The notes under the pieces are model-generated. The model was not told where the DNA came from. It ran no database searches and saw only the letters and a program-made list of their open reading frames with translations. From an uncultured Bacilli bacterium (GTDB lineage: Bacteria > Bacillota_I > Bacilli_A > RF39 > UBA660): a stretch of DNA of 18,678 nt. The first letter of the stretch is position 1. Every line of letters starts with the position of its first letter. Made by a program: the position numbers and the translations under genes. The stretch is from assembly GCA_944372315.1 (NCBI GenBank), contig CALVYX010000019.1, positions 1 through 18,678 of the forward strand, written 5' to 3'. Below are positions 3,478 through 16,108 of the stretch, in pieces.

Positions 3478-3554
3478 CGCGGGATGGAGCAGTCTGGTAG
3501 CTTGCTAGTATCGTTGGCTAGAGGTCGTAGGTTCAAATCCTACTCCCGCAACCA
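3478..3554 (+). tRNA. Initiator-type tRNA with anticodon CGU (reads ACG)
   Basis: The body matches bacterial tRNA-fMet nearly position by position outside the anticodon arm. The acceptor is CGCGGGA/TCCCGCA with the initiator-specific C1 x A72 mismatch (3478, 3550), the formylation pairs G2-C71, C3-G70 and G4-C69 are present, the D stem GAGC/GCTT has A11-U24, the D loop is AGTCTGGTA, the variable loop AGGTC, the T arm GTAGG-TTCAAAT-CCTAC, then A73 and encoded CCA. The anticodon stem is CTAGT/GCTAG and the loop ATCGTTG, giving anticodon CGT at 3512-3514. Two departures from normal initiators: the three G-C pairs next to the loop are lost (A29-U41, G30-C40, U31-G39), and position 37 is U. CGU is exactly complementary to ACG, the apparent start codon of six genes downstream. 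Automatic tools may label it tRNA-Thr(CGT). Confidence 0.9.
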
Positions 3555-3594: not shown

Positions 3595-4068
3595 TTGGCT
3601 AAATATGATTGGAAAAACCTAGAAAAAGAGTATCTTACAAGTAAACATAAAACTGTTAGCTCATTTTTAAAAGCCAAAGGTATTTCTGATAATGGAAATA
3701 CTAGAAAAAAAATTAAAGGCTGGAAAAATAAAAAGGTAGTAGTCGAGGAGAAAAAGAGTGCAAAAACCCTCGAAAAAATAATTGAAAAACAGGCCGAAAA
3801 AGAAGCAAATGAAATTGTTAGTGTTGGTAGTGTAGCAGATGCTTTATTAAAAAAAGTAAATGAAGCTGTAAAAGAATTGAATATTCATGTAGATATGTTT
3901 GGCAATCAGCGCGAGAGCATAGTTGATAGAAATGAACTAAAAAAATTAACATCTGCTTTAAAAGACATAGATGACGTGTTAAAGGATAAGAATAAAGCAA
4001 ATGATGTTGAAGATTTAACAGTCCTTGCTGACTTACTAGGGTTTGGTGATGATGAACGCAAACAATAA
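3595..4068 (+). CDS. terS: Terminase small subunit-like protein, 157 aa
   Basis: TTG start at 3595 follows GGTGAGGTG. The N terminus (AKYDWKNLEKEYLTSKHKTV, then SSFLKAKGI) has the helix-turn-helix-like layout of Firmicute phage small terminases, which recognise the packaging site; the rest is helical and charged, fit for oligomerisation. It lies directly before the large terminase and its end overlaps that gene by 13 bases. Family assignment rests on the N-terminal pattern and position. Confidence 0.7.
   Translation: MAKYDWKNLEKEYLTSKHKTVSSFLKAKGISDNGNTRKKIKGWKNKKVVVEEKKSAKTLEKIIEKQAEKEANEIVSVGSVADALLKKVNEAVKELNIHVDMFGNQRESIVDRNELKKLTSALKDIDDVLKDKNKANDVEDLTVLADLLGFGDDERKQ
4045..4058 (+). promoter_or_regulatory. 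Shine-Dalgarno and ACG start of terL
   Basis: GGTGAT at 4045-4050 matches the anti-Shine-Dalgarno; ACG is at 4056-4058, base -1 is A, and the codon before it is the in-frame stop TGA (4053-4055). Confidence 0.65.
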
Positions 4069-5402
4069 AGTGGCTACCATTTTCCAAAAAGCATATAGAT
4101 TACATTATAAATAGCAAAAAATGTAAAGCAAATGTTGCTGAAGGAGCTGTTCGTGCTGGTAAAACAATAGATAACTGTATAGCTTTTTCATTAAACTTAG
4201 AATATAGTAAAGATAAAATTCATTTGGCTAGTGGTTCGACTCTCGCTAATGCTAAACTTAATATTGGTGAATGTAATGGTTATGGATTAGAACATCAATT
4301 TAAGGGAAGATGTAAATGGGGGAAATTCAAAGACAATGAAGCGTTATTTATCAACACCAAGGCTGGACAAAAAATAGTTATATTTGTTGGTGGAGGTAAA
4401 GCTGATAGTTATAAAAAAATATTAGGTAATTCATACGGATTATGGATAGCAACTGAAATAAATGAGCATTATGATGCTGATGATTCTAAAACTAGCTTTA
4501 TTAAAGTTGCATTTGCTAGACAACTAGCGAGTGATAATCCTAAATGGTTTTGGGATTTAAATCCAGGAAACCCTAATGATACGATATATAGTGAATATCT
4601 TGATTTGTGGCAAGAAAAAGGATTGTTAGGTGGATACAATTATCAACACTTCACAATATTTGATAATGCTGCGATAACTGAACAAAGAAAAGCTGAGATA
4701 ATAAGCCAATATGATCCATCGAGCATATGGTATCAAAGAGATATACTAGGAAAAAGAGTTGTGGCAGAAGGACTTATATATTGTGAATTTAAAGACTATC
4801 ACATTGTTAAGATGCAAGACTGGAATGCAATTGATGAAAAGGGTAATTATACCAATGATATAAGAAAGTCACTAAAATTCATAAGTGTTGGTGTTGACTT
4901 CGGAGGTAATATATCAGCTCACAGTTTTAATGCCACTGGTTTTACTAATCAATTTAGAAAATTTGGCACAATAAAGCAGAAAAGAATTGCCAAAAGAATA
5001 GATGATAAAGAATTAACACAAGAATTTATAAAATTCATAGAAGAATTAAGAGAAGAATATCCCAATGTAAATATTATAGATATTAGATGTGATTCTGCAG
5101 AACAAACATTGATTGCTGGATTTGAAAGAGCACTAAGAGAAAATAATATTGGAATACCAATAAATAATGCTATAAAAGGCGAAATACTTAATCGTATTAG
5201 GTTTTATTGTAAGATGTTTAGTACTAATAAGTATTTTGTTTTAGAATGCTGTAATGACTTAATAATGGCATTTAAAACTGCAGTATGGGAGAAAGATAAA
5301 AATGATGTGCGACTTGATGATGGGAAGCAAGATGTCGATAGCCTTGATGCTCAAGAATATTCTACAGAACCATATCAAGGAGTATTAGTTCAAATAAATT
5401 AA
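4056..5402 (+). CDS. terL: Terminase large subunit, ACG start, 448 aa
   Basis: This packaging ATPase/nuclease has Walker A EGAVRAGKT at residues 29-37 (K36), and RNase H-like nuclease acidic residues at D281 (GVDFGG), D346 (IRCDSAEQ) and D426/D428/D431 (KQDVDSLDAQ). The frame opens at 4056 right after TGA and contains no ATG, GTG or TTG before TTG 4224, which would delete the Walker A motif. ACG at 4056, giving (T/M)QTIKWLPFSKKHIDYI, fits the normal N terminus of this family. An ATA at 4065 is the only nearby alternative. The gene overlaps TerS and is followed 12 bases later by the portal gene in the same frame. Confidence 0.93.
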   Translation, partial: TQTIKWLPFSKKHIDYIINSKKCKANVAEGAVRAGKTIDNCIAFSLNLEYSKDKIHLASGSTLANAKLNIGECNGYGLEHQFKGRCKWGKFKDNEALFINTKAGQKIVIFVGGGKADSYKKILGNSYGLWIATEINEHYDADDSKTSFIKVAFARQLASDNPKWFWDLNPGNPNDTIYSEYLDLWQEKGLLGGYNYQHFTIFDNAAITEQRKAEIISQYDPSSIWYQRDILGKRVVAEGLIYCEFKDYHIVKMQDWNAIDEKGNYTNDIRKSLKFISVGVDFGGNISAHSFNATGFTNQFRKFGTIKQKRIAKRIDDKELTQEFIKFIEELREEYPNVNIIDIRCDSAEQTLIAGFERALRENNIGIPINNAIKGEILNRIRFYCKMFSTNKYFVLECCNDLIMAFKTAVWEKDKNDVRLDDGKQDVDSLDAQEYSTEPYQGVLVQIN

Positions 5403-5403
5403 A

Positions 5404-5417
5404 GGAGGTATTTAACG
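5404..5417 (+). promoter_or_regulatory. Shine-Dalgarno and ACG start of portal gene
   Basis: GGAGG at 5404-5408, 6-base spacer TATTTA, ACG at 5415-5417, base -1 A. Between the terL stop and the ACG there is no other start codon in this frame. Confidence 0.85.
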
Positions 5418-6809
5418 GAAAAAGTTGTTCAAGATTTTTTAAAGGATATCGGATATAGTGTTAATAAAATAGATACTGATCAAGAAAATAGAGTTAACAA
5501 TTGGCTTATGTGGTATGAGGGAAAAACAAAAGACCATGAATATTATGTTTATAATGGTAGAAAAAGAAATAAATATATATTAAAAAGCCTTAATATAGCG
5601 AGTCAATCATGCGAGGATTTGTCAGATTTTTTCTTTAATGAAAAATTAGAAATAACAATAAGCAATAAAAGAGTCCAAAAAGCAATAAACGATTGTTTTA
5701 TGCAAAATGGATTTTTAGATAATGCTAATAGTTTAATGCAATTAGTAGAGGCACTAGGAACTGGTGCTTTTGTTCCGTATTTAGATGAGGGTGTACTTAG
5801 AATAAACTATTTAGATGCTACTAACATTGTTATTTTAAATGCTACTAAAAAGGAAGTCAAAGAAGTATTATTTTGGACTAAAACTAAAACTCTAAATGGC
5901 GAAATTATTACTATAAACGCCCATATCCTAGATGAAAATAGCAATTATATAATACATAATCGAAAATATGAACGGAAAAGTGATTCAAGTACCTATCAAA
6001 AAATAGATTTAGGTGATTTAGAAAAAGTTGAAACAAAATCTGTAATACCTAAATTTGCAATGCTATTTACTCCTAAGATTAATAATTTAGATATTGATAG
6101 TCCTTATGGTATTAGTTCATATGCAAATGCAACTGATATTATATTAGGCATCGATAAAGTATATGATAGTTTAGATAATGAAACATGGTTAGGTAGAAAA
6201 AGAGTTTATGTATCAACTAGTGCAACATCATTTAATGTTGATGAAAATGGAAATATGACTCCGATATTTGACCCAACAGATGTAACTTTTTATGCAGTGC
6301 CTGGCAAAGATGAAAAAGAAATATTAAAAGAAAGTTCTTTTGATTTAAGAATTGAAGCTTTAACTCAAGCTTTGCAAGCACAATTAAATCTTTATACTTC
6401 TAAGGTTGGATTAGGGCATAATTATTATAAATTCAAAGATGGTGAAGTATATGTTAATACTGATAATGTAATGAGTTCTAATAGTGATGTATATCGTAAA
6501 ATTAAGAAGCAAGAAAATATAATTACTAAAGCAATAATTCAATTGTGTTATGCTATAGCAGATTTGTTAAAATTATCTGGCACTTTTAGTGTATCAGTTA
6601 ATTATGATGATAGCATTATTGAAGATACTGATAAAATTCGAACTCAAGCGCAAACAGAATATAATTCTAAATTAATTAGTAAAGCTCAATATTATAGAGA
6701 TGTGTATAAATTAAAAGATGAGGAAGCATTGCAATTTGCTGAACAAATGAACGAAGAAATAAAAAATCAGACAATAACTGATGGTAGTGAGTTCAATTTA
6801 GATGAATAA
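5415..6809 (+). CDS. Portal protein (SPP1 gp6-like), ACG start, 464 aa
   Basis: The portal is the dodecameric channel at one capsid vertex through which DNA enters. Position directly after TerL, length and the middle region (NLDIDSPYGISSYANATDII and following) fit the SPP1-type portal family. Without the ACG start the first in-frame ATG is at 5508, with no ribosome binding site, and 31 residues would be lost (EKVVQDFLKDIGYSVNKIDT and so on). The C terminus is acidic and overlaps the minor head gene by 8 bases. Product assignment is secure by context; the start is inferred from the perfect GGAGG spacing. Confidence 0.9.
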   Translation, partial: TEKVVQDFLKDIGYSVNKIDTDQENRVNNWLMWYEGKTKDHEYYVYNGRKRNKYILKSLNIASQSCEDLSDFFFNEKLEITISNKRVQKAINDCFMQNGFLDNANSLMQLVEALGTGAFVPYLDEGVLRINYLDATNIVILNATKKEVKEVLFWTKTKTLNGEIITINAHILDENSNYIIHNRKYERKSDSSTYQKIDLGDLEKVETKSVIPKFAMLFTPKINNLDIDSPYGISSYANATDIILGIDKVYDSLDNETWLGRKRVYVSTSATSFNVDENGNMTPIFDPTDVTFYAVPGKDEKEILKESSFDLRIEALTQALQAQLNLYTSKVGLGHNYYKFKDGEVYVNTDNVMSSNSDVYRKIKKQENIITKAIIQLCYAIADLLKLSGTFSVSVNYDDSIIEDTDKIRTQAQTEYNSKLISKAQYYRDVYKLKDEEALQFAEQMNEEIKNQTITDGSEFNLDE

Positions 6810-8382
6810 TGAAGAGTTAGTTAATAAAGCAATTGAGCCTCTTCTTGAAATGTATACTAAAATTGAAAATGATTTATTAGTAATGATAGCAGAGCATTTT
6901 AAGTCAAATGCAGAGTTTTTAAATAGTGATTATTGGCGAATACAAAAGTTAGAAGAAATGGGATTGTTCAATGAAGAAGTAATTGAGTATTTAGCAAAGT
7001 ATACTAATCGTACTAGAGAAGAGATATTAAAAGCATTAGAAGAAATAGGATATGATACTTTTGATATCAATAAGTTGGAAAATGTTTTTGAGCATGGAAA
7101 AATAAGAATAAATCCTAATACACTGATTGAAAATAACACTATTCAGAACATCATTAATAATGCCTACAACGAACTTTCTAATCATTTCATAGAGTTATCT
7201 AATAAAATAGCAAATTCAACGAGAGAAGCCTATTTAAATATAGTAGAAGAGGCATATCTTAAAACATCAATGGGAACACACTCATATCAGGAAGCTATAA
7301 GAGAGAGTCTTAATAGTTTAGGTAATAAGGGAATAACCACTTTAACATACACTACAATAGATGATGCAGGAAATATTATAGGAATTAGAAATTATGATGT
7401 TGAGGGTACGGTTAGAAGAGATATTCTTACTGGTGTAAGATCATTGTCTAATGATATCAATAAAACTACTGTTGAAGAATTAGAGTGCGAATGGGTATAT
7501 TTATCTGAACACTTAAGATGTAGGCCAACACATTTTGATTGGCAAGGTACAATAATCAAATACGAAGATTTAGTTAATGTAACTAATTATGGAGATGTTG
7601 CTGGTTTAGGGGGTATAAATTGTGCACATTATTTTGAACCATATTTTGGTGATGCTCGTGGAGATGAATTAAAAAGCATTTCCAAAGAAGATGCATTAGA
7701 ACAATACCATTTAAGTCAAGAGCAAAGATATCTTGAAAGAGGAATTAGAAAATGGAAAAGAAAAGCCGAGGTGTGGAAAAGTTCGGACAACATTGATCAA
7801 TATAATAAATGTACAGATAAGGTTAGAGAATGGCAAAGCAGATTAAAGAATTTTACTGAAGAACATAACCTAAGAAGAGACTATACTAGAGAATATGTTG
7901 CTCAAAGATATCCAAATTGGTATGTAAAATTAACTCAAGATGAAAAACAAGCATTAAACCAATATATTAGTAGTGACTCATATAAAATAAACGAAAAGCT
8001 ATATACAAATACTCCTTTAACAACAGAAGAAGAGACATTAGTTAAACATATTGATAATGCCCTTGATAAAATCCCCAACTATAAAGGATATGTTAATAGG
8101 TCAGTATTTATAAAAAATCAGGATCATTTAAATGAAATATTAAGTGTGTTTAATAATAAAGATTTAATCGGAAGTTGGAGTTCATATGTGTCATCAAGTA
8201 AAATTGTATATGATGATACAGCTGAACTACAATTTAGAATTTTATCAAAAACTGGTAAAAATATATCGTCTTTGAATAAAAATGAACAAGAAATTCTATT
8301 TAAAAGAAATACGAGGTTTAAAATTGTTGATTATAATCAAAAAAATGGTAAAATAAATATTAACTTGGAGGAAGTAGAATAA
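6802..8382 (+). CDS. Minor head protein with C-terminal ADP-ribosyltransferase-like domain, 526 aa
   Basis: Residues about 1-330 look like phage minor capsid protein 2: helical N terminus, then WVYLSEHLRCRPTHFDWQG and INCAHYFEPYFGD, with conserved His, Cys and Trp. Residues about 377-526 have the three marks of arginine-type ADP-ribosyltransferases: an Arg motif (YKGYVNRSV, R433), a Ser motif (SWSSYVSSS, about 458-466) and an E-x-E motif (NEQEILF, E495 and E497) followed by KRNTRFKIVDY. The head part would place it at the portal; the enzyme part could be injected with the DNA and modify host proteins or RNA, as T4 Alt does. Normal ATG start overlapping the portal gene, no strong ribosome binding site, so probably coupled. 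Confidence 0.8.
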   Translation: MNNEELVNKAIEPLLEMYTKIENDLLVMIAEHFKSNAEFLNSDYWRIQKLEEMGLFNEEVIEYLAKYTNRTREEILKALEEIGYDTFDINKLENVFEHGKIRINPNTLIENNTIQNIINNAYNELSNHFIELSNKIANSTREAYLNIVEEAYLKTSMGTHSYQEAIRESLNSLGNKGITTLTYTTIDDAGNIIGIRNYDVEGTVRRDILTGVRSLSNDINKTTVEELECEWVYLSEHLRCRPTHFDWQGTIIKYEDLVNVTNYGDVAGLGGINCAHYFEPYFGDARGDELKSISKEDALEQYHLSQEQRYLERGIRKWKRKAEVWKSSDNIDQYNKCTDKVREWQSRLKNFTEEHNLRRDYTREYVAQRYPNWYVKLTQDEKQALNQYISSDSYKINEKLYTNTPLTTEEETLVKHIDNALDKIPNYKGYVNRSVFIKNQDHLNEILSVFNNKDLIGSWSSYVSSSKIVYDDTAELQFRILSKTGKNISSLNKNEQEILFKRNTRFKIVDYNQKNGKININLEEVE

Positions 8383-8594
8383 TGTTAAATTTTAAAGATT
8401 GGATGATGTTATCTAAAGAAGAAAAAATTAGGCAATATGCTAATTTATCTGAAAGTGATAAGTTTTTGGTAAGACAGGGAAATTATTTTGACAATGACAA
8501 TAACAAAAATACAAATCAAGAAAGTGAATTTATAAAAGAAATTGACGAAATGTATAAAAATTTGAAGCAAAACAATGATAACACTACTTTTTAG
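8382..8594 (+). CDS. Hypothetical protein, 70 aa
   Basis: ATG at 8382 after GGAGGAAGTAGAATA; the stop of the previous gene overlaps it. The N-terminal 35 residues (FKDWMMLSKEEKIRQYANLS) are helical and the C terminus is Asn/Asp rich. Its stop codon lies in the loop of a 7-bp hairpin (ACACTAC 8581-8587 with GTAGTGT 8595-8601). Found between minor head and scaffold genes; function unknown. Confidence 0.7.
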   Translation: MLNFKDWMMLSKEEKIRQYANLSESDKFLVRQGNYFDNDNNKNTNQESEFIKEIDEMYKNLKQNNDNTTF

Positions 8595-8598
8595 GTAG

Positions 8599-8681
8599 TG
8601 TAAGTCGCATTTAAGGGAGGCATAGCCATTGGATGCTATCTTGTAGGTTCGACTCCTAGCTTTTCTTAAATGCGACTTACA
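8599..8681 (+). ncRNA. tRNA-like structured element on a 23-bp stem
   Basis: 8599-8621 pairs with 8659-8681: 17 perfect pairs followed by six pairs with G-U wobbles. On top sit two arms: ATAGC/GCTAT (8622-8626, 8635-8639) with loop CATTGGAT, and TAGG/CCTA (8644-8647, 8655-8658) with loop TTCGACT, which is a textbook T loop. The order acceptor, D-like arm, T arm resembles a tRNA without an anticodon arm. It may be a degenerate tRNA or a dedicated tRNA-mimic RNA. The pairing is seen directly; the role is unknown. Confidence 0.6.
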
Positions 8682-8698
8682 GTGCTTATAAACGCACT

Positions 8699-8729
8699 AA
8701 AGAGCATAGAAATATGTTCTTTTTATTTT
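8699..8729 (+). terminator. Rho-independent terminator inside the virion operon
   Basis: AGAGCATA/TATGTTCT with a GAAA tetraloop (one G-U pair, extended by A-T pairs) followed by TTTTATTTT. It is very similar to the terminator at 2587-2610. A further small hairpin AGTGC/GCACT lies at 8681-8698. No convincing promoter is visible between here and the scaffold start at 8808, so partial read-through or antitermination is likely. Confidence 0.7.
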
Positions 8730-8807
8730 GCCTTTTACTTGGTTAGGCTTTAAAAGAAATCAAGGTGAGGGAATTACTTTGTTACCCTTAATAAAAACGG
8801 AGGAGAT

Positions 8808-9389
8808 ATGAAAAAAACATTTATGCCTTTGAATATTCAGCGATTTGCAGAAAATAGCGGAGAAGAAGGCGAAAACTCAGTTACTCAGACTGAAATTAAA
8901 ACTGAGGGGACAGGAGCTGAACCTGTTGCAAAAACAGAAGAAAAGACTTTTACTCAAGAAGAAGTTAATGCAATGGTACTTAAAGAAGTAAATAAAGTGA
9001 CTAAAAAGTACGAAGGTGTTGACATGAAAAAATACAAGGAATGGGAAGAAAGTCAAAAGACAAAAGAAGAAAAATATGCGGACATTTTAAAAGAAAATGA
9101 AAAATTAAAAAATAATTTAGCATATGCGGAAAACAAATCAGTAGTTGCAAATGCTGGTGTTGATTCTAAATTTCAAAAATTTGTTTTATCTGAGGTATCT
9201 TTAATGGATGGAGATTTTGAGGAAAATTTAAAAAATTATTTAAAAGAAAATTCTCAATATTTAGTTAATAATGAAACTAAAACTCCAAACAGTACAGGTA
9301 TACCTCAAAATAATGCTAACAAAAGTGTTAGTGACAAACAAGCATATTTAGATAAAAAATATGCTAATAATCCATATTACAAAAAATAA
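8808..9389 (+). CDS. Capsid scaffolding protein (gp20-like), 193 aa
   Basis: The N terminus PLNIQRFAE is the hallmark of scaffold proteins of low-GC Gram-positive siphophages. It is followed by an acidic linker, a long Lys/Glu coiled coil (about residues 45-105, including KYEGVDMKKYKEWEESQKTK) and a C-terminal region ending NNPYYKK. It guides capsid assembly and sits directly before the major capsid gene. ATG at 8808 has GGAGGAG at 8799-8805; ATG 8823 (MPLNIQ) is an alternative. Unlike the capsid gene it uses a normal start. Confidence 0.85.
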   Translation: MKKTFMPLNIQRFAENSGEEGENSVTQTEIKTEGTGAEPVAKTEEKTFTQEEVNAMVLKEVNKVTKKYEGVDMKKYKEWEESQKTKEEKYADILKENEKLKNNLAYAENKSVVANAGVDSKFQKFVLSEVSLMDGDFEENLKNYLKENSQYLVNNETKTPNSTGIPQNNANKSVSDKQAYLDKKYANNPYYKK

Positions 9390-9393
9390 TTAA

Positions 9394-9410
9394 GGAGAGG
9401 TGATTTAACG
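9394..9410 (+). promoter_or_regulatory. Shine-Dalgarno and ACG start of major capsid gene
   Basis: GGAGAGGTGAT at 9394-9404, ACG at 9408-9410, base -1 A. In this frame there is no ATG, GTG or TTG between the upstream stop (9387) and ATG 9780. Confidence 0.9.
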
Positions 9411-10265
9411 GCAAAATATGGAAATCAATATGTTGATGAAGAATATTTATCAGCAATAGAACCAAACTTATACACTGATGAAGTTTTAATTCCAAATGTT
9501 ACATTCAGTGAAGATATTGTAGAAGGTCCTGCGGGTGGTTACTATGCACATAAATTAAATGATGGTAATGCAGTAGAACCAGGTACACCAGGAAGAGATT
9601 TTACGGATGAAACTGCAAAAGATGAATTAATTCAAGTTTCATACAATAATAACTTCCAAAAATCAAGAAAAATTTATGGAGTACAAGCAGCAGCAGTTGG
9701 ATTTAATGCTGGCGAAGCATATTTAGCAAATGCATTAAATGTTACTAAAGAAGGAAGAAGATATTCTGCTCTTGCGTGTATGGTTAATGAAGGTACTGTT
9801 TTGGCTGATACAACTGAAACTGATGAAGATAATGTTGTAGCAAATATTATTGCTATGAGAAAAGAAGTAAAAGATAATCACGGACAAGCAAATTTCTTGC
9901 TTGCTAGCACCGCAGTATATGCAGCTGCCTTAAAGGTGTTAGGATTAAAATCTACTGAAGATCCAGCTATTATTAGTGCTCAATTAATTAAAAGGTTTGG
10001 CCTTGATATTATCGAATGTAATTCATTTGATAAAGAAGGAGCTAAATATTATGATTACAGTGGCACATTAAAAACTGTTGACTTAACTGATGTAGAAATG
10101 ATTTGTGGTTATTACCAAGCATTCAAACTTGAAGATAACTTTGCTACATATAGACTAATTGACAGTGAAAACTTTGCTGGTTCTAAAGCTCAAGTAGAAT
10201 ATAACACTGCTATGAGAGTTGTTAGTCCTGAACAAATTATTGTAAAAAAAAAAGTAACAGCGTAA
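9408..10265 (+). CDS. Major capsid protein (HK97 fold), ACG start, 285 aa
   Basis: The product begins AKYGNQYVDEEYLSAIEPNL after the start residue and continues through EAYLANALNV, LIKRFGLDIIECNSF and the AMRVVSPEQIIVKK end. This is a small HK97-type capsid protein, as in other Firmicute siphophages, placed after the scaffold. The first canonical start codon in the frame is ATG 9780, at residue 125, deep in the fold and without a ribosome binding site, so ACG at 9408 is the only credible start. The zero-frame product stops at 10263 soon after a run of ten A (10244-10253), where a -1 frameshift is predicted to make a 362-residue form. Confidence 0.93.
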   Translation, partial: TAKYGNQYVDEEYLSAIEPNLYTDEVLIPNVTFSEDIVEGPAGGYYAHKLNDGNAVEPGTPGRDFTDETAKDELIQVSYNNNFQKSRKIYGVQAAAVGFNAGEAYLANALNVTKEGRRYSALACMVNEGTVLADTTETDEDNVVANIIAMRKEVKDNHGQANFLLASTAVYAAALKVLGLKSTEDPAIISAQLIKRFGLDIIECNSFDKEGAKYYDYSGTLKTVDLTDVEMICGYYQAFKLEDNFATYRLIDSENFAGSKAQVEYNTAMRVVSPEQIIVKKKVTA

Positions 10266-10504: not shown

Positions 10505-10519
10505 GGAGGGATATAAACG
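10505..10519 (+). promoter_or_regulatory. Shine-Dalgarno and ACG start of connector gene
   Basis: GGAGGG at 10505-10510, 6-base spacer ATATAA, ACG at 10517-10519, base -1 A. The codon before the ACG is the in-frame stop TAA (10514-10516). Confidence 0.88.
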
Positions 10520-10933
10520 GATAGTTATATAGATTATAGCTACTACACAGATAATTTTGGTGGGAATTTAATCCCTCAAGAAAATTTTGATAAGTTTGCT
10601 AAAGGGGCAAGTTATGGAGTTAGATTACGGATTCAAAATAGAGATATTACTAATTTTGAAAGTGAAGTAAAAGATGCTACTTGCTCCGTAGCAGATATTT
10701 TATATAACCAATTTACTGAAAAAGAAAAAATAAAGAATATTGTTAATGGTAATGAAAAAATAATTACATCTGAAAAGGTGGGCGACTATTCACGAAATAT
10801 CAGTGCAATTACTTTAAATGATTTACTATCTTTATCATCTGATGAAAAGATAACAAAAGAAATAAATAAAATTGTAGAGCAATACCTGTTTTTCACGGGA
10901 CTTCTATATGGAGGAATGCCTTGTGTTCGATAA
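10517..10933 (+). CDS. Head-tail connector protein, ACG start, 138 aa
   Basis: The frame opens exactly at ACG 10517, since the preceding codon is TAA, and has no ATG until a few codons from its end (10918), so ordinary ORF finders miss it. The product (DSYIDYSYYTDNFGGNLIPQ onward, with SEVKDATCSVADILYNQF and a helical C terminus EIVEQYLFFTGLLYGG-like) fits the gp6/Gp15-type connector that follows the capsid gene in siphophages. Position immediately after the major capsid and before head-closure genes supports this. The next gene starts within its last codons. Confidence 0.8.
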   Translation, partial: TDSYIDYSYYTDNFGGNLIPQENFDKFAKGASYGVRLRIQNRDITNFESEVKDATCSVADILYNQFTEKEKIKNIVNGNEKIITSEKVGDYSRNISAITLNDLLSLSSDEKITKEINKIVEQYLFFTGLLYGGMPCVR

Positions 10934-11740: not shown

Positions 11741-12162
11741 TTGAAAAAATTAGGGATTACATTGCAACTTGTCCTTATTTAGATGAATTTACCGCTCTAA
11801 ATGTCAATTATTTAGTTGATAAAGTTAAAGCATATTCAGTAAATGAAAGCACTGCTTATAATCCTGTTGTGAATACATATTTAAATGGGGACAAAGAAAT
11901 GCAATTTTTATTTAGTTTCGATGCCAAACTCTATTGGAATGATGAAGTGAAAAATAATATTGATAATTCGGCATTTTTTGAAAAATTTAGGGATTGGTTA
12001 GAAAATAATGATGATAATGATATTTATCCCGCGGTTGATGGTATTCAACCATTGTCCATTAGTGCTACAACTAATGGATATATTTTTGCAACAAATTCTA
12101 ATGAAGCGATTTATAGGATTAGTTGTAAATTTGATTATCTTAAGATAAAAGGAGGAATTTAA
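11737..12162 (+). CDS. Tail terminator/minor capsid protein (Minor_capsid_3-like), 141 aa
   Basis: ATG 11737 is in an ATGA overlap. The sequence starts with a helical IEKIRDYIATCPYLDEFTAL segment, then MQFLFSFDAKLYWNDE and a beta ending YRISCKFDYLKIKGGI, the usual pattern of the tail-completion protein encoded directly before the major tail protein. Its TAA shares one base with the ACG start of that gene (TAACG), exactly as TAATG overlaps do with ordinary starts. Confidence 0.75.
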   Translation: MIEKIRDYIATCPYLDEFTALNVNYLVDKVKAYSVNESTAYNPVVNTYLNGDKEMQFLFSFDAKLYWNDEVKNNIDNSAFFEKFRDWLENNDDNDIYPAVDGIQPLSISATTNGYIFATNSNEAIYRISCKFDYLKIKGGI

Positions 12163-12164
12163 CG
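12151..12164 (+). promoter_or_regulatory. Shine-Dalgarno and ACG start of major tail protein
   Basis: GGAGG at 12151-12155, spacer AATTTA, ACG at 12162-12164, base -1 A. The alternative ATG 12192 has only a weak AGAAG upstream. Confidence 0.78.
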
Positions 12165-12659
12165 AGTAAGTTTGTAAAAAGAAGTGAAATAATGGCTTTC
12201 TTAAACATTGAACCAAGTGGTTCTAGTGAATCATGGGCTTTAGTAGGTAATGGTATGACCACAGGATCATATTCATATGAGGCTACTGAAACCAGTGAAA
12301 CATATATCATAAATGAAAACGCAACTACAACAGTAGATAGTTATGCTGTTTCATTAGATGGAGAAATGAAATGTATCTACGGTGATCAAGTATATGATTA
12401 TATTAATGGTTTAAGATATAATCTTGCTACTGGTACGGATGCAGAAACAACTGTTTTATTAATTGATAAATATGATACTGATGATGATGGAAGCTTCAAA
12501 GCACAAAAGTTCAATTGCTCAATTAGCATCAGTTCATATGGTGGCGATGGTGGAGCTACTCCTAGCATTGGATTTAAAATTAATGTTAATGGCGACCCTA
12601 CACAAGGCACTGCTACTATTGCGAGTGGAGTCCCAACATTTACCGAAGCTAGTGCTTAA
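12162..12659 (+). CDS. Major tail protein, ACG start, 165 aa
   Basis: The tube protein starts SKFVKRSEIMAFLNIE after the start residue and carries WALVGNGMTTGSYSYEATET, then LDGEMKCIYGDQVYDYINGL and GGDGGATPSIGFKINVNGDP, typical of short major tail proteins of Firmicute siphophages. It assembles into the hexameric-ring tail tube. ACG 12162 adds ten residues relative to ATG 12192 and has the better ribosome binding site. It is followed by the two tail-assembly genes. Confidence 0.85.
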   Translation, partial: TSKFVKRSEIMAFLNIEPSGSSESWALVGNGMTTGSYSYEATETSETYIINENATTTVDSYAVSLDGEMKCIYGDQVYDYINGLRYNLATGTDAETTVLLIDKYDTDDDGSFKAQKFNCSISISSYGGDGGATPSIGFKINVNGDPTQGTATIASGVPTFTEASA

Positions 12660-13765: not shown

Positions 13766-13768
13766 ACG
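13754..13768 (+). promoter_or_regulatory. Shine-Dalgarno and ACG start of tape measure gene
   Basis: AGAGGTGA at 13754-13761, ACG at 13766-13768, base -1 A, and the preceding codon is the in-frame stop TAA that also ends the upstream gene. Confidence 0.87.
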
Positions 13769-16108
13769 AATGGTTACTTAAACATCAAAACTAGAATTGA
13801 TAATTCTGATTTGAAGAAAAATTTAAATCAAACTAAAAAAGAACTTCAAAAATTTAAAAACGAAGAAGAAAAGTTAACTAATAAAAAACTTCAACTAGAA
13901 GCAGAAGTTAATATAAATGAAAAGTCTTATCAACAAAAATTGGATAAACTCAAAAAAGAATACCTAGATGCAATGGATGTTGCATCTGGATTTAGTGGCA
14001 ATGTTAGTCAGCAAAATAAATCTAGAATAGATGCTGACTTTCAAACTAGATTAAATGATTTAAATGCTAACGATTCATATGTTAAAGCTGTTAATGAATT
14101 AAAAAATATAGAAAGCCAATTACAACGAAATAAAACTAAGCAAGAAGAGTGGAACTCTAAAATTGATGAAATGAATGCATCTTTGAGACAATATGATGCA
14201 ATAGAAGAATCACATAAGAATATTAATAAATCAATTGATGATTCTACAAAAAAAATTGGTGGAACAATAAAACAAGTTGCTAAATGGGCTTTGGCCGTAT
14301 TTGCAGTTGAAAGTGCTTATGGATTTATAAGAAATGCAATTAGTACGTTAACTGGATACAATGATCAATTAGCTGCAGATGTAGAATATATTCAATTTGC
14401 TATAGCAAGCACTTTAGAGCCAGTAATAGAGCGAATAGTAGGATGGGTATATACTTTACTTCAATATGTTAATTATCTTGCTCAAGCCTGGTTTAATGTA
14501 AATCTATTTGCTAACGCGACTGAAAAGAATTTTAAAAAGGCAAATCAATCTGCAAAGCAATTAAATAAATCATTGAGTGGGTTTGATGAGATAAATCAAT
14601 TATCTGATAATTCTAGTAATAGTGGAAGTATAGTAGGACCATCAGTGGATTTATCAAATATGGAAGATTTTGAACCTCCTGCGTGGTTAGAAAAAATTGC
14701 TGAATTTGGTAAACCTATAATTGAATTTTTCCAAAACATTATAGATAAGTACGGATTAGTTGCTGGTGGCATAATGATAGTTGTAGGTGCCCTTGGTGCG
14801 TTATCTATAATAAAAACTATAACTAGTTGGATAACTGGTTTAGGTAAATCTGTAACAAAAGGGTCAACTGATTTTACTAAATTTTTCAATAGTTTGGGAA
14901 GAGCAGCAGAAGCTATTGCATTGTTGGGTGGATTATCACTAGTGATAGATTCTATTACTGAATTAATTGATATTTTTTCAGAAAGTGGAATGACATTAGG
15001 TGAAGTTGCAGGATTACTGGGAATAGTCTTAGTCGAAGTTGCGGCGGCTTTCATTGTCTTAATGGGGGCAATGACTTTACTCCAACCTAGCTGGCAAAGT
15101 ATAGCAGCTGCAGCAGTAATATTTGCTGGACTAGCACTAGTGTTACAATCTGTTTGTAATTTAATGGATACGTTTGCTGATAACGGCTTATCTTTAACTG
15201 ATGTAATAGGGCTTATGGCCACAGTATTAGTAACAATAATAGGGTTGATGGGGTCTATTGTGTTGTTGGGACCATCTATGACTGCTGGTCTAGTACCATT
15301 TAGTATTTTGATAGCAGCAATATCAGCGGTGTTATTGGTTATGGCAGCAACACTTCCAATTATTTTAGATGCAGTTGGAGATTTTATTGAACAAATTGCA
15401 CCTAGTTTATGTGATATTTTAGAAACGATAGGGATATTGATTGAGAATTTAATATATGCTTTAGGCACTGTTTTACCACCTATAATTGATAGTGTTGGTG
15501 GACTATTTGGTACTATTTTTAATGGCATTGCGAATGTTATAAATGCGGTAGGAAATGGTCTTGTAAATATATTAAATGCTATTGGAAGTTTGGTAAATAG
15601 TGTTTTAGGATCATTGCTTGGATTTATTAGAGATTTAGGTCCAGCAATTGAAACGTTTGTTGATAGTGCTATAAATGCAGTTACTAAACTTATTAATTTC
15701 ATGATTAGCGGTATTGAATATTTGGTTAATACTCTTGTTGTAGATGGCGTTAACGCAATAATAAAAGGAATTAATAGTATCGGTAAGTATATTGGATTTA
15801 CTATACCTACGTTATCTGAGTTTAAGATTGCAAGATTTAAACCGACTTATGCAGCTACTGGTGGTATAGTTGATGTTCCTCAACGTGGTGTTCCTGTAGG
15901 CAATAATGTCTTTGCTGGTGAAGCCGGAGCGGAAGGAATATTGCCATTAACTGATGAAAATACAATGCGCAGGTTAGGTCAAGAAATAGCTAAATGGATT
16001 GTTCTTAACATTCAATTAAATAATTATATAGATGGTCGTTTGCTAGCAAAATATATTAAGCAAATAATGAATGGCCAAGAATTTTCAAGAAACGGAGGTA
16101 TATCTTAA
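13766..16108 (+). CDS. Tape measure protein, ACG start, 780 aa
   Basis: The N terminus read from ACG, NGYLNIKTRIDNSDLKKNLN, is the standard start of Firmicute tape measure proteins; starting at TTG 13811 would remove it and has no ribosome binding site. Residues about 16-140 are coiled coil, about 330-530 contain several hydrophobic segments (for example GGIMIVVGALGALSI), and the C terminus has VPVGNNVFAGEAGAEGILPL, a common end-domain motif. It sets tail length and is ejected at infection. At 780 residues the expected tail is of modest length (inference from the usual length rule). Confidence 0.93.
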   Translation, partial: TNGYLNIKTRIDNSDLKKNLNQTKKELQKFKNEEEKLTNKKLQLEAEVNINEKSYQQKLDKLKKEYLDAMDVASGFSGNVSQQNKSRIDADFQTRLNDLNANDSYVKAVNELKNIESQLQRNKTKQEEWNSKIDEMNASLRQYDAIEESHKNINKSIDDSTKKIGGTIKQVAKWALAVFAVESAYGFIRNAISTLTGYNDQLAADVEYIQFAIASTLEPVIERIVGWVYTLLQYVNYLAQAWFNVNLFANATEKNFKKANQSAKQLNKSLSGFDEINQLSDNSSNSGSIVGPSVDLSNMEDFEPPAWLEKIAEFGKPIIEFFQNIIDKYGLVAGGIMIVVGALGALSIIKTITSWITGLGKSVTKGSTDFTKFFNSLGRAAEAIALLGGLSLVIDSITELIDIFSESGMTLGEVAGLLGIVLVEVAAAFIVLMGAMTLLQPSWQSIAAAAVIFAGLALVLQSVCNLMDTFADNGLSLTDVIGLMATVLVTIIGLMGSIVLLGPSMTAGLVPFSILIAAISAVLLVMAATLPIILDAVGDFIEQIAPSLCDILETIGILIENLIYALGTVLPPIIDSVGGLFGTIFNGIANVINAVGNGLVNILNAIGSLVNSVLGSLLGFIRDLGPAIETFVDSAINAVTKLINFMISGIEYLVNTLVVDGVNAIIKGINSIGKYIGFTIPTLSEFKIARFKPTYAATGGIVDVPQRGVPVGNNVFAGEAGAEGILPLTDENTMRRLGQEIAKWIVLNIQLNNYIDGRLLAKYIKQIMNGQEFSRNGGIS

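Follow-up and report, generated by a model that had tools for sequence, protein, structure and literature searches.

A putative phage initiator tRNA re-aimed from AUG to ACG, and structural genes that appear to start at the matching codon

Across bacteria, the CAU anticodon of the initiator tRNA and the AUG-type start codons that it reads are treated as fixed. The stretch of DNA analysed here – 18,678 nucleotides from a contig of an uncultured Bacilli bacterium, hereafter the window – raises the question of whether a phage can change both at once: it encodes a tRNA with the body of an initiator and the anticodon CGU, upstream of structural genes whose frames open with ACG. The tRNA lies at:

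3478–3554, + strand: tRNA with an initiator body, anticodon CGU (3512–3514) and encoded CCA (ARAGORN, Rfam, pair table)

ARAGORN calls a tRNA-Thr(CGT) at exactly these positions, and the Rfam tRNA model scores it at 47.9 bits; its minimum free-energy fold is not the cloverleaf (z −0.88), whereas the Rfam covariance-model alignment is. The pair table contains, together with the CGU anticodon, every initiator mark that the first-pass annotation had read from the sequence – C1×A72, G2–C71, C3–G70, G4–C69 and A11–U24 – as well as A73. The missing Watson–Crick pair at 1:72 is an initiator trait and sets the molecule apart from an elongator tRNA-Thr; the formylation pairs G2–C71 and C3–G70 and the purine 11–pyrimidine 24 combination are initiator traits too. 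The Thr anticodon bases G35 and U36 are present. Two traits of the fMet class are absent, namely the CAU anticodon and the three consecutive G–C pairs 29–31:39–41: the stem has its sole G–C pair at G30–C40, with A–U at 29:41 and U·G at 31:39, and the loop reads ATCGTTG, with U at position 37. The earlier claim of likeness to tRNA-fMet thus stands for the body, where 50 of 60 aligned columns are identical to a Lysinibacillus fMet tRNA once the anticodon arm is excluded, and does not extend to the arm itself. Annotated tRNA-Met genes of Erwinia phages match the window tRNA at 87% identity over 92% of the length. That this gene combines an initiator body with a CGU anticodon is confirmed.

The 1:72 mismatch is uncommon among the distinct ARAGORN tRNAs of all the loci compared, being found in 17 of 55, with the other 38 paired. 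Those 17 comprise ten CGT tRNAs, three ordinary CAT fMet tRNAs, two with GTT and two odd calls (a Ser in L046 and a Thr(TGT) in L186). Nine of the ten CGT tRNAs, the window's among them, have C1×A or C1×U; the tenth, in L052, has G1×A and was set aside for its defective acceptor. CGT tRNAs in L009, L022, L027 and L038 were also rejected as initiators, since T1 pairs with A72 and marks them as elongators. We further built a covariance model, R1, from an alignment of eight CGT tRNAs, the window's included; it gives the window tRNA 91.7 bits, but for these eight the score is high by construction, and the only result taken from R1 is that it finds no such tRNA in relatives with ATG starts.

By PHROG profiles, the window is the structural block of a tailed phage, with terL, portal, minor head, capsid, head–tail adaptor, major tail and tape measure genes, and its host was probably a low-GC bacterium. 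Six of these genes open with ACG:

4056–5402, + strand: terL (phrog_2, E 1.3e-18); ACG right after an in-frame TGA, no clear Shine–Dalgarno (SD) motif
5415–6809, + strand: portal (phrog_533); ACG start, SD AAAGGAGGT
9408–10265, + strand: major capsid protein (phrog_267); ACG start, SD GGAGAGGTG, next in-frame start 124 codons in
10517–10933, + strand: head–tail adaptor (phrog_541); ACG the first codon past a stop, SD GGAGG
12162–12659, + strand: major tail protein (phrog_3099/820); ACG start, SD AAAGGAGG
13766–16108, + strand: tape measure protein (phrog_1535); ACG the first codon past a stop, SD GAGGTG

All six ACG codons, which the first-pass annotation had picked out as late starts downstream of the tRNA, bear this description out: they open long frames, have no in-frame ATG, GTG or TTG upstream, and are followed by the nearest such codon only 10 to 124 codons further in. 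Five of the six are preceded by an SD motif at normal spacing; the exception, with no clear motif, is terL, which overlaps the end of terS and whose next in-frame start lies 56 codons in.

Close relatives place an ordinary start at or near the codon where the window has ACG. In four viral contigs (L001–L004) with capsids 77–82% identical to the window's, the capsid gene has ATG at exactly the window's ACG codon; the same holds for the portal in L001 and L003 and for terL in L001 and L004. The adaptor has its ATG two codons further along in L003 and L004, the major tail gene one codon further in L004, and for the tape measure gene L003 and L004 gave no alignment at the start. Neither ARAGORN nor R1 found a CGU tRNA in L001, L003 or L004, each of which retains more than 4 kb upstream of terL. 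More widely, the capsid matched 866 homologues, and the N-termini of the best 46 of these were examined; in 40 the first Met falls on query residue 1 or 2 (MAKYGNQYVDEQ or similar). The other six (P0016, P0018, P0021, P0036, P0044 and P0045) are truncated, with predicted starts at residue 26 or 38; a caller that overlooked an ACG start would be expected to give this result, and they possibly represent further ACG-start phages. Among named phage records, the capsid found a single match at 29% identity, and thus no cultured relative.

Related phages with a CGU initiator or with ACG starts were reached by two routes. L016, L017 and L005 came from a protein search, and the tRNA of L016 was noticed only afterwards; L023, L048, L008 and L186 were located by a tRNA pattern, and their ACG starts were seen later. 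The pattern scans, which covered viral contigs and one genome collection and give a minimum for the number of members, found CGU tRNAs with a mismatched C1 in L016 (with its copies L041 and L042), L023, L048, L008/L014, L186 and L013/L015; the L048 contig had been assigned to the bin of an uncultured Bacilli bacterium. Among 385 genomes in the order of G001, G001 alone matched a UCGUUR-type pattern. Pattern matches in L007, L010–L012 and most of L018–L043 proved to be chance matches in other sequence, and in an acceptor-pairing screen of 118 loci (L083–L200), L186 was the sole tRNA of the CGU-initiator kind among the candidates listed.

The ACG starts in these contigs fall on structural genes, among them several that open with ACG in the window. 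The portal starts at ACG in L016, L023, L048, L008 and L186, and the capsid in L016 and L008; the major tail gene does so in L016 and L048, which have the CGU tRNA, and also in L005 and L017, the adaptor in L005 and L016, and the tape measure gene in the L016, L048 and L008 lineages as well as in L005 and L017. The contigs of L005 and L017, with ACG at orthologous genes, begin behind the place of the tRNA. The L008 capsid has 16 relatives whose start is visible; every one of them, several being near-copies, has ATG, and ARAGORN found no CGU tRNA in these relatives, some of whose contigs are short. L013/L015 depart from the pattern: they share an identical CGU initiator, their capsid starts with ATG, and the roughly 10 kb visible contain no SD-preceded ACG start. 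They are either a real exception or phages whose ACG genes lie off the contig.

How closely do tRNA and start codon go together? In each of the six distinct contigs carrying a CGU initiator, the portal starts with ACG; in each of the six relatives that yielded no such tRNA, some of them fragments (L060 measures 4.4 kb), it starts with ATG. A maximum-likelihood tree of the portal, read from its well-supported branches alone, requires that the start codon changed three times or more, whether by gain or by loss; the contrasts fall between the window, L016 and L023 on the one side and L001, L003 and L004 on the other, between L048 and L059 (77% identical), and between L008/L186 and L076. Across genes, SD-preceded ACG accounts for 21 of 191 codons in the six contigs with the tRNA, against 3 of 465 in a set of 26 relatives. 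Fisher's test gives p = 2e-9, which is a nominal value, as the contigs share ancestry and the 21 include a second ACG within the portal gene of G004. Of 26 ACG genes over five contigs, 25 lack an in-frame upstream ATG, GTG or TTG, and in 11 the ACG is the first codon after a stop. Unrelated GC-rich loci can also have SD-preceded ACG codons by chance, as with the three in L045.

A simple gene caller that penalises ACG called it 27 times in four contigs with the tRNA and twice in eight relatives. In the same four contigs it called AAA 29 times and AAT 25 times, about as often, so that the ACG count alone would prove nothing; specificity for ACG rests on the contrast of 27 to 2 with the eight relatives, and on the alignments. 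CGU initiators and ACG starts do occur jointly in related phages, and the absence of such co-occurrence was among the grounds for refutation that the first-pass annotation had listed. These comparisons support the view that the anticodon of the initiator and the start codon have changed in step from lineage to lineage, with L013/L015 as the exception.

Position along the genome adds a further regularity, counted with the simple caller on the + strand only. ACG was called in 6 of 16 genes behind the tRNA and in none of 6 before it in the window, in 7 of 20 against 0 of 35 in G005, and in 7 of 24 against 0 of 37 in contig G001:C8, or 20 of 60 against 0 of 78 when the three are pooled. In G004, where the tRNA lies inside the structural block, the figures are 5 of 15 behind and 2 of 29 before. 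G005 and G001:C8 have an integrase at the left end and are thus probably temperate.

Other elements near these tRNAs may be recorded briefly. A tRNA-Ile(UAU) with T1–A72 at 2613–2688 of the window stands directly behind a hairpin followed by a T-run; the CGU initiators of L016, L008 and L013 likewise stand directly behind a terminator-like hairpin. At 8585–8700, between two late genes, a long near-perfect inverted repeat folds into a hairpin of −48.9 kcal/mol (z −7.6). At gathering level, Rfam reports only the two tRNAs in the window, with nothing credible at 8560–8830, nor beyond the tRNA at 2340–2720. A search for a formyltransferase gene in G004, G005, G001 and the contig of L186 gave a hit in G001 alone, where the gene lies on a different contig from the phage; for the window, the search covered ten proteins.

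The anticodon arm indicates what kind of molecule the class as a whole may be. G30–C40 is kept in all seven CGU phage tRNAs, as it is in a GUU tRNA described below, and none of the seven has all three G–C pairs. U37, within a loop of the form xUCGUUR, is present in six, with C37 in L013. All seven have G2–C71 and C3–G70; C1×A72 is found in the window tRNA and five others, with C1×U72 in L008, and A11–U24 in five, having been lost in L016 and L023. According to published work, A1339 of 16S rRNA contacts G30–C40, and swapping this pair costs about 20-fold in vivo (PMC11497404); the full set of three G–C pairs has been described as found in all initiators (PMC4611024). In sum, the class looks built to work like an initiator; we do not file it as tRNA-fMet, because neither CAU nor the full set of three pairs, both textbook features of that tRNA, is present. 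It shares with bacterial tRNA-fMet, which some phages also carry, C1×A72, G2–C71, C3–G70, G30–C40, mostly A11–U24 and a close body; it differs in having one or two G–C pairs rather than three, U37 (C37 in L013) rather than A37, CGU rather than CAU, and ACG starts to match.

Some chromosomal genes resemble this class. In Lysinibacillus contaminans, four fMet genes stand in tandem, and one of them (L044, 289–363) reads CGT and has a damaged anticodon stem, being either a stray copy or a sequencing error. In a Jorgensenbacteria MAG, an initiator-like tRNA with the anticodon CGT and intact G–C pairs (L046, G003:C6:9155–9231) sits among a row of odd tRNAs; it is the best R1 match in its MAG, though the training of R1 included it, and a Met(CAT) tRNA comes next at 66 bits. 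The 8 kb surrounding each of the two CGT genes contain no SD-preceded ACG, and both, being chromosomal, were left out of the phage members. L059, a relative of the L048 phage with an ATG start, has at 6987–7062 an initiator-like tRNA-Met(CAT) with U1–A72, which could be the kind of precursor that lies behind the CGU versions.

When CGCGG-type initiator bodies were scanned for a middle anticodon base other than A, the only contigs to emerge apart from L013/L015 were L201–L203, whose tRNA (2555–2631 in L201) has C1×A72, the anticodon GUU and C73. Directly downstream, at 2674–3672 of L201, an AAGGAG motif and eight bases precede an AAC that opens a frame of 333 codons, whereas the first ATG, GTG or TTG comes only at codon 39 counted from the preceding stop, some 29 codons past the AAC. 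Read from AAC and translated by eye, the N-terminus (FGLGGLFTAAGTVAG...) resembles that of Met-start homologues aligning over up to 98% of the query; a database entry 99% identical to this gene begins only at an internal Met. In 40 of the 61 kb of the GUU contig, other AAC or AAT calls are no more frequent than calls of CAC or GAC. As the three contigs are related, being nearly identical around the tRNA, and the AAC start concerns one gene, we offer GUU/AAC as support rather than proof. The wider search that the first-pass annotation had proposed, for initiator-body tRNAs with non-CAU anticodons and matching starts, has thus yielded CGU with ACG in five other contigs, and GUU with AAC as well.

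What, then, does the CGU tRNA do? Very probably, to judge from these patterns, it is a phage-encoded initiator whose anticodon has changed from CAU to CGU and which starts the main structural genes at ACG. The ACG codons are likely to be read poorly by the host's own initiator. The CGU tRNA would be charged with Met and/or Thr by host enzymes: the E. coli MetRS can, according to a review, methionylate tRNA-Thr(CGU) through its anticodon, while Thr identity uses the anticodon together with acceptor pairs (PMC9976931). The host formyltransferase would then formylate it by way of C1×A72, IF2 and G30–C40 would bring it to the P site, and CGU would pair with the ACG that follows the SD motif. With the tRNA at the head of the late block or inside it, structural proteins might be made only once that block is transcribed, which would amount to a lock on late genes at the level of translation and would suit temperate phages. 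Such a lock would be partial, as 10 of the 16 called late genes of the window do not use ACG. Also counted against the initiator reading and its lock are L013/L015, the chromosomal genes L044 and L046 with no SD-preceded ACG near them, the chance occurrence of SD-preceded ACG in GC-rich loci, the broken G–C pairs, the losses of A11–U24, U72 in L008, the terL start without a clear SD motif, and the ACG calls before the tRNA in G004. More generally, it seems likely, though somewhat less so than the initiator role itself, that phages have repeatedly evolved private start codons – ACG here, AAC in another group – so that virion proteins would be made only from their own initiator, perhaps with an N-terminus other than Met.

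The best-surviving alternative accepts the CGU/ACG pair and differs as to its purpose: rather than serving as a timing lock, it would shield virion protein synthesis from the destruction of tRNA-fMet by host nucleases or toxins. Initiator tRNA is cleaved by VapC toxins, and phages are reported to alter anticodon loops to escape, while T4 repairs cut tRNA with RNA ligases (all PMC10264068). The stem–loop of the CGU tRNA is rewritten beyond the anticodon, and the window encodes, upstream of its tRNAs:

835–1455, + strand: RNA ligase with an ATG start (PF09414, E 1.7e-10)

This is possibly an accessory gene for tRNA repair, and RNA ligases are also encoded by the GUU phage L201 and by the L048 phage, where the gene precedes the CGU initiator. 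However, G004, G005 and L186 yielded none, and in three contigs every gene called ahead of the tRNA has an ATG, GTG or TTG start, so that the host fMet tRNA must stay usable early in infection. We regard this purpose as conceivable but rather doubtful.

An elongator tRNA-Thr serving ACG codons, with the ACG starts read weakly by the host fMet tRNA, would agree with the ARAGORN label and with the Thr anticodon bases, yet it is improbable. It would leave C1×A72 in an initiator body to be accounted for, and of the 289 Thr codons within the window's late genes only 15 are ACG, so that elongator supply explains little. Nor would it lead one to expect the portal start codon and the tRNA to change together at least three times on the tree. 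It would also give weak starts to the capsid and major tail genes, whose products are usually made in large amounts.

Less probable again is a decayed, functionless copy of an fMet gene: the CGT copy with the damaged stem in the Lysinibacillus array is a precedent, but the phage CGU tRNAs span several lineages with intact stems and a shared loop and are matched by ACG starts. Least credible is that C-to-U editing, known from plant organelles, turns ACG into AUG in the mRNA by a single change while the tRNA is unrelated, as this would leave the six-of-six co-occurrence with CGU and the GUU/AAC pair unexplained, and we know of no ACG-to-AUG editing system in phages.

Among known systems, the proposed phage-encoded initiator has two nearest neighbours. 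The closest man-made counterpart is the engineered orthogonal initiator, for which an amber pair (CUA/UAG, Mj-itRNA; PMC8576571) and GUG/CAC with other non-AUG pairs (PMC13232202) are described: these share the initiator body, the changed anticodon and the matching start, but are made in the laboratory, mostly for non-canonical amino acids, whereas the CGU class is natural, belongs to phages and has several genes with the matching start. The closest natural idea is the recoding of late genes by phage suppressor tRNAs (theta-ribozyme-linked; PMC10879173), in which a phage tRNA is likewise proposed to control recoded late genes. Suppressors act at stop codons, however; in the CGU case the start codon would be recoded, the late frames are open under genetic code table 11, and with its CGU anticodon the tRNA lacks the traits of a suppressor. 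Phage tRNAs with altered anticodon loops that evade tRNA-cutting defences, in the known case alongside RNA ligases (PMC10264068), resemble the CGU class in the altered loop; they replace host tRNAs for the same codon, whereas the CGU class changes both the codon read and the genes. Among the top matches in the open-licence literature, titles and abstracts mention only engineered counterparts and no natural non-CAU initiator with matching starts, in keeping with the first-pass annotation, which had known of engineered mutants and no natural phage system.

If the proposed reading is true, the natural and recurrent re-aiming of an initiator would constitute start-codon recoding, a counterpart to the stop-codon recoding of phages, and standard gene callers would shorten or miss such structural genes, as the six capsid entries suggest. 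These tRNAs would offer a test bed for what P-site selection needs (C1×A72, G30–C40, U37) and for the first amino acid of the proteins they start, and they may provide natural orthogonal initiators for biotechnology.
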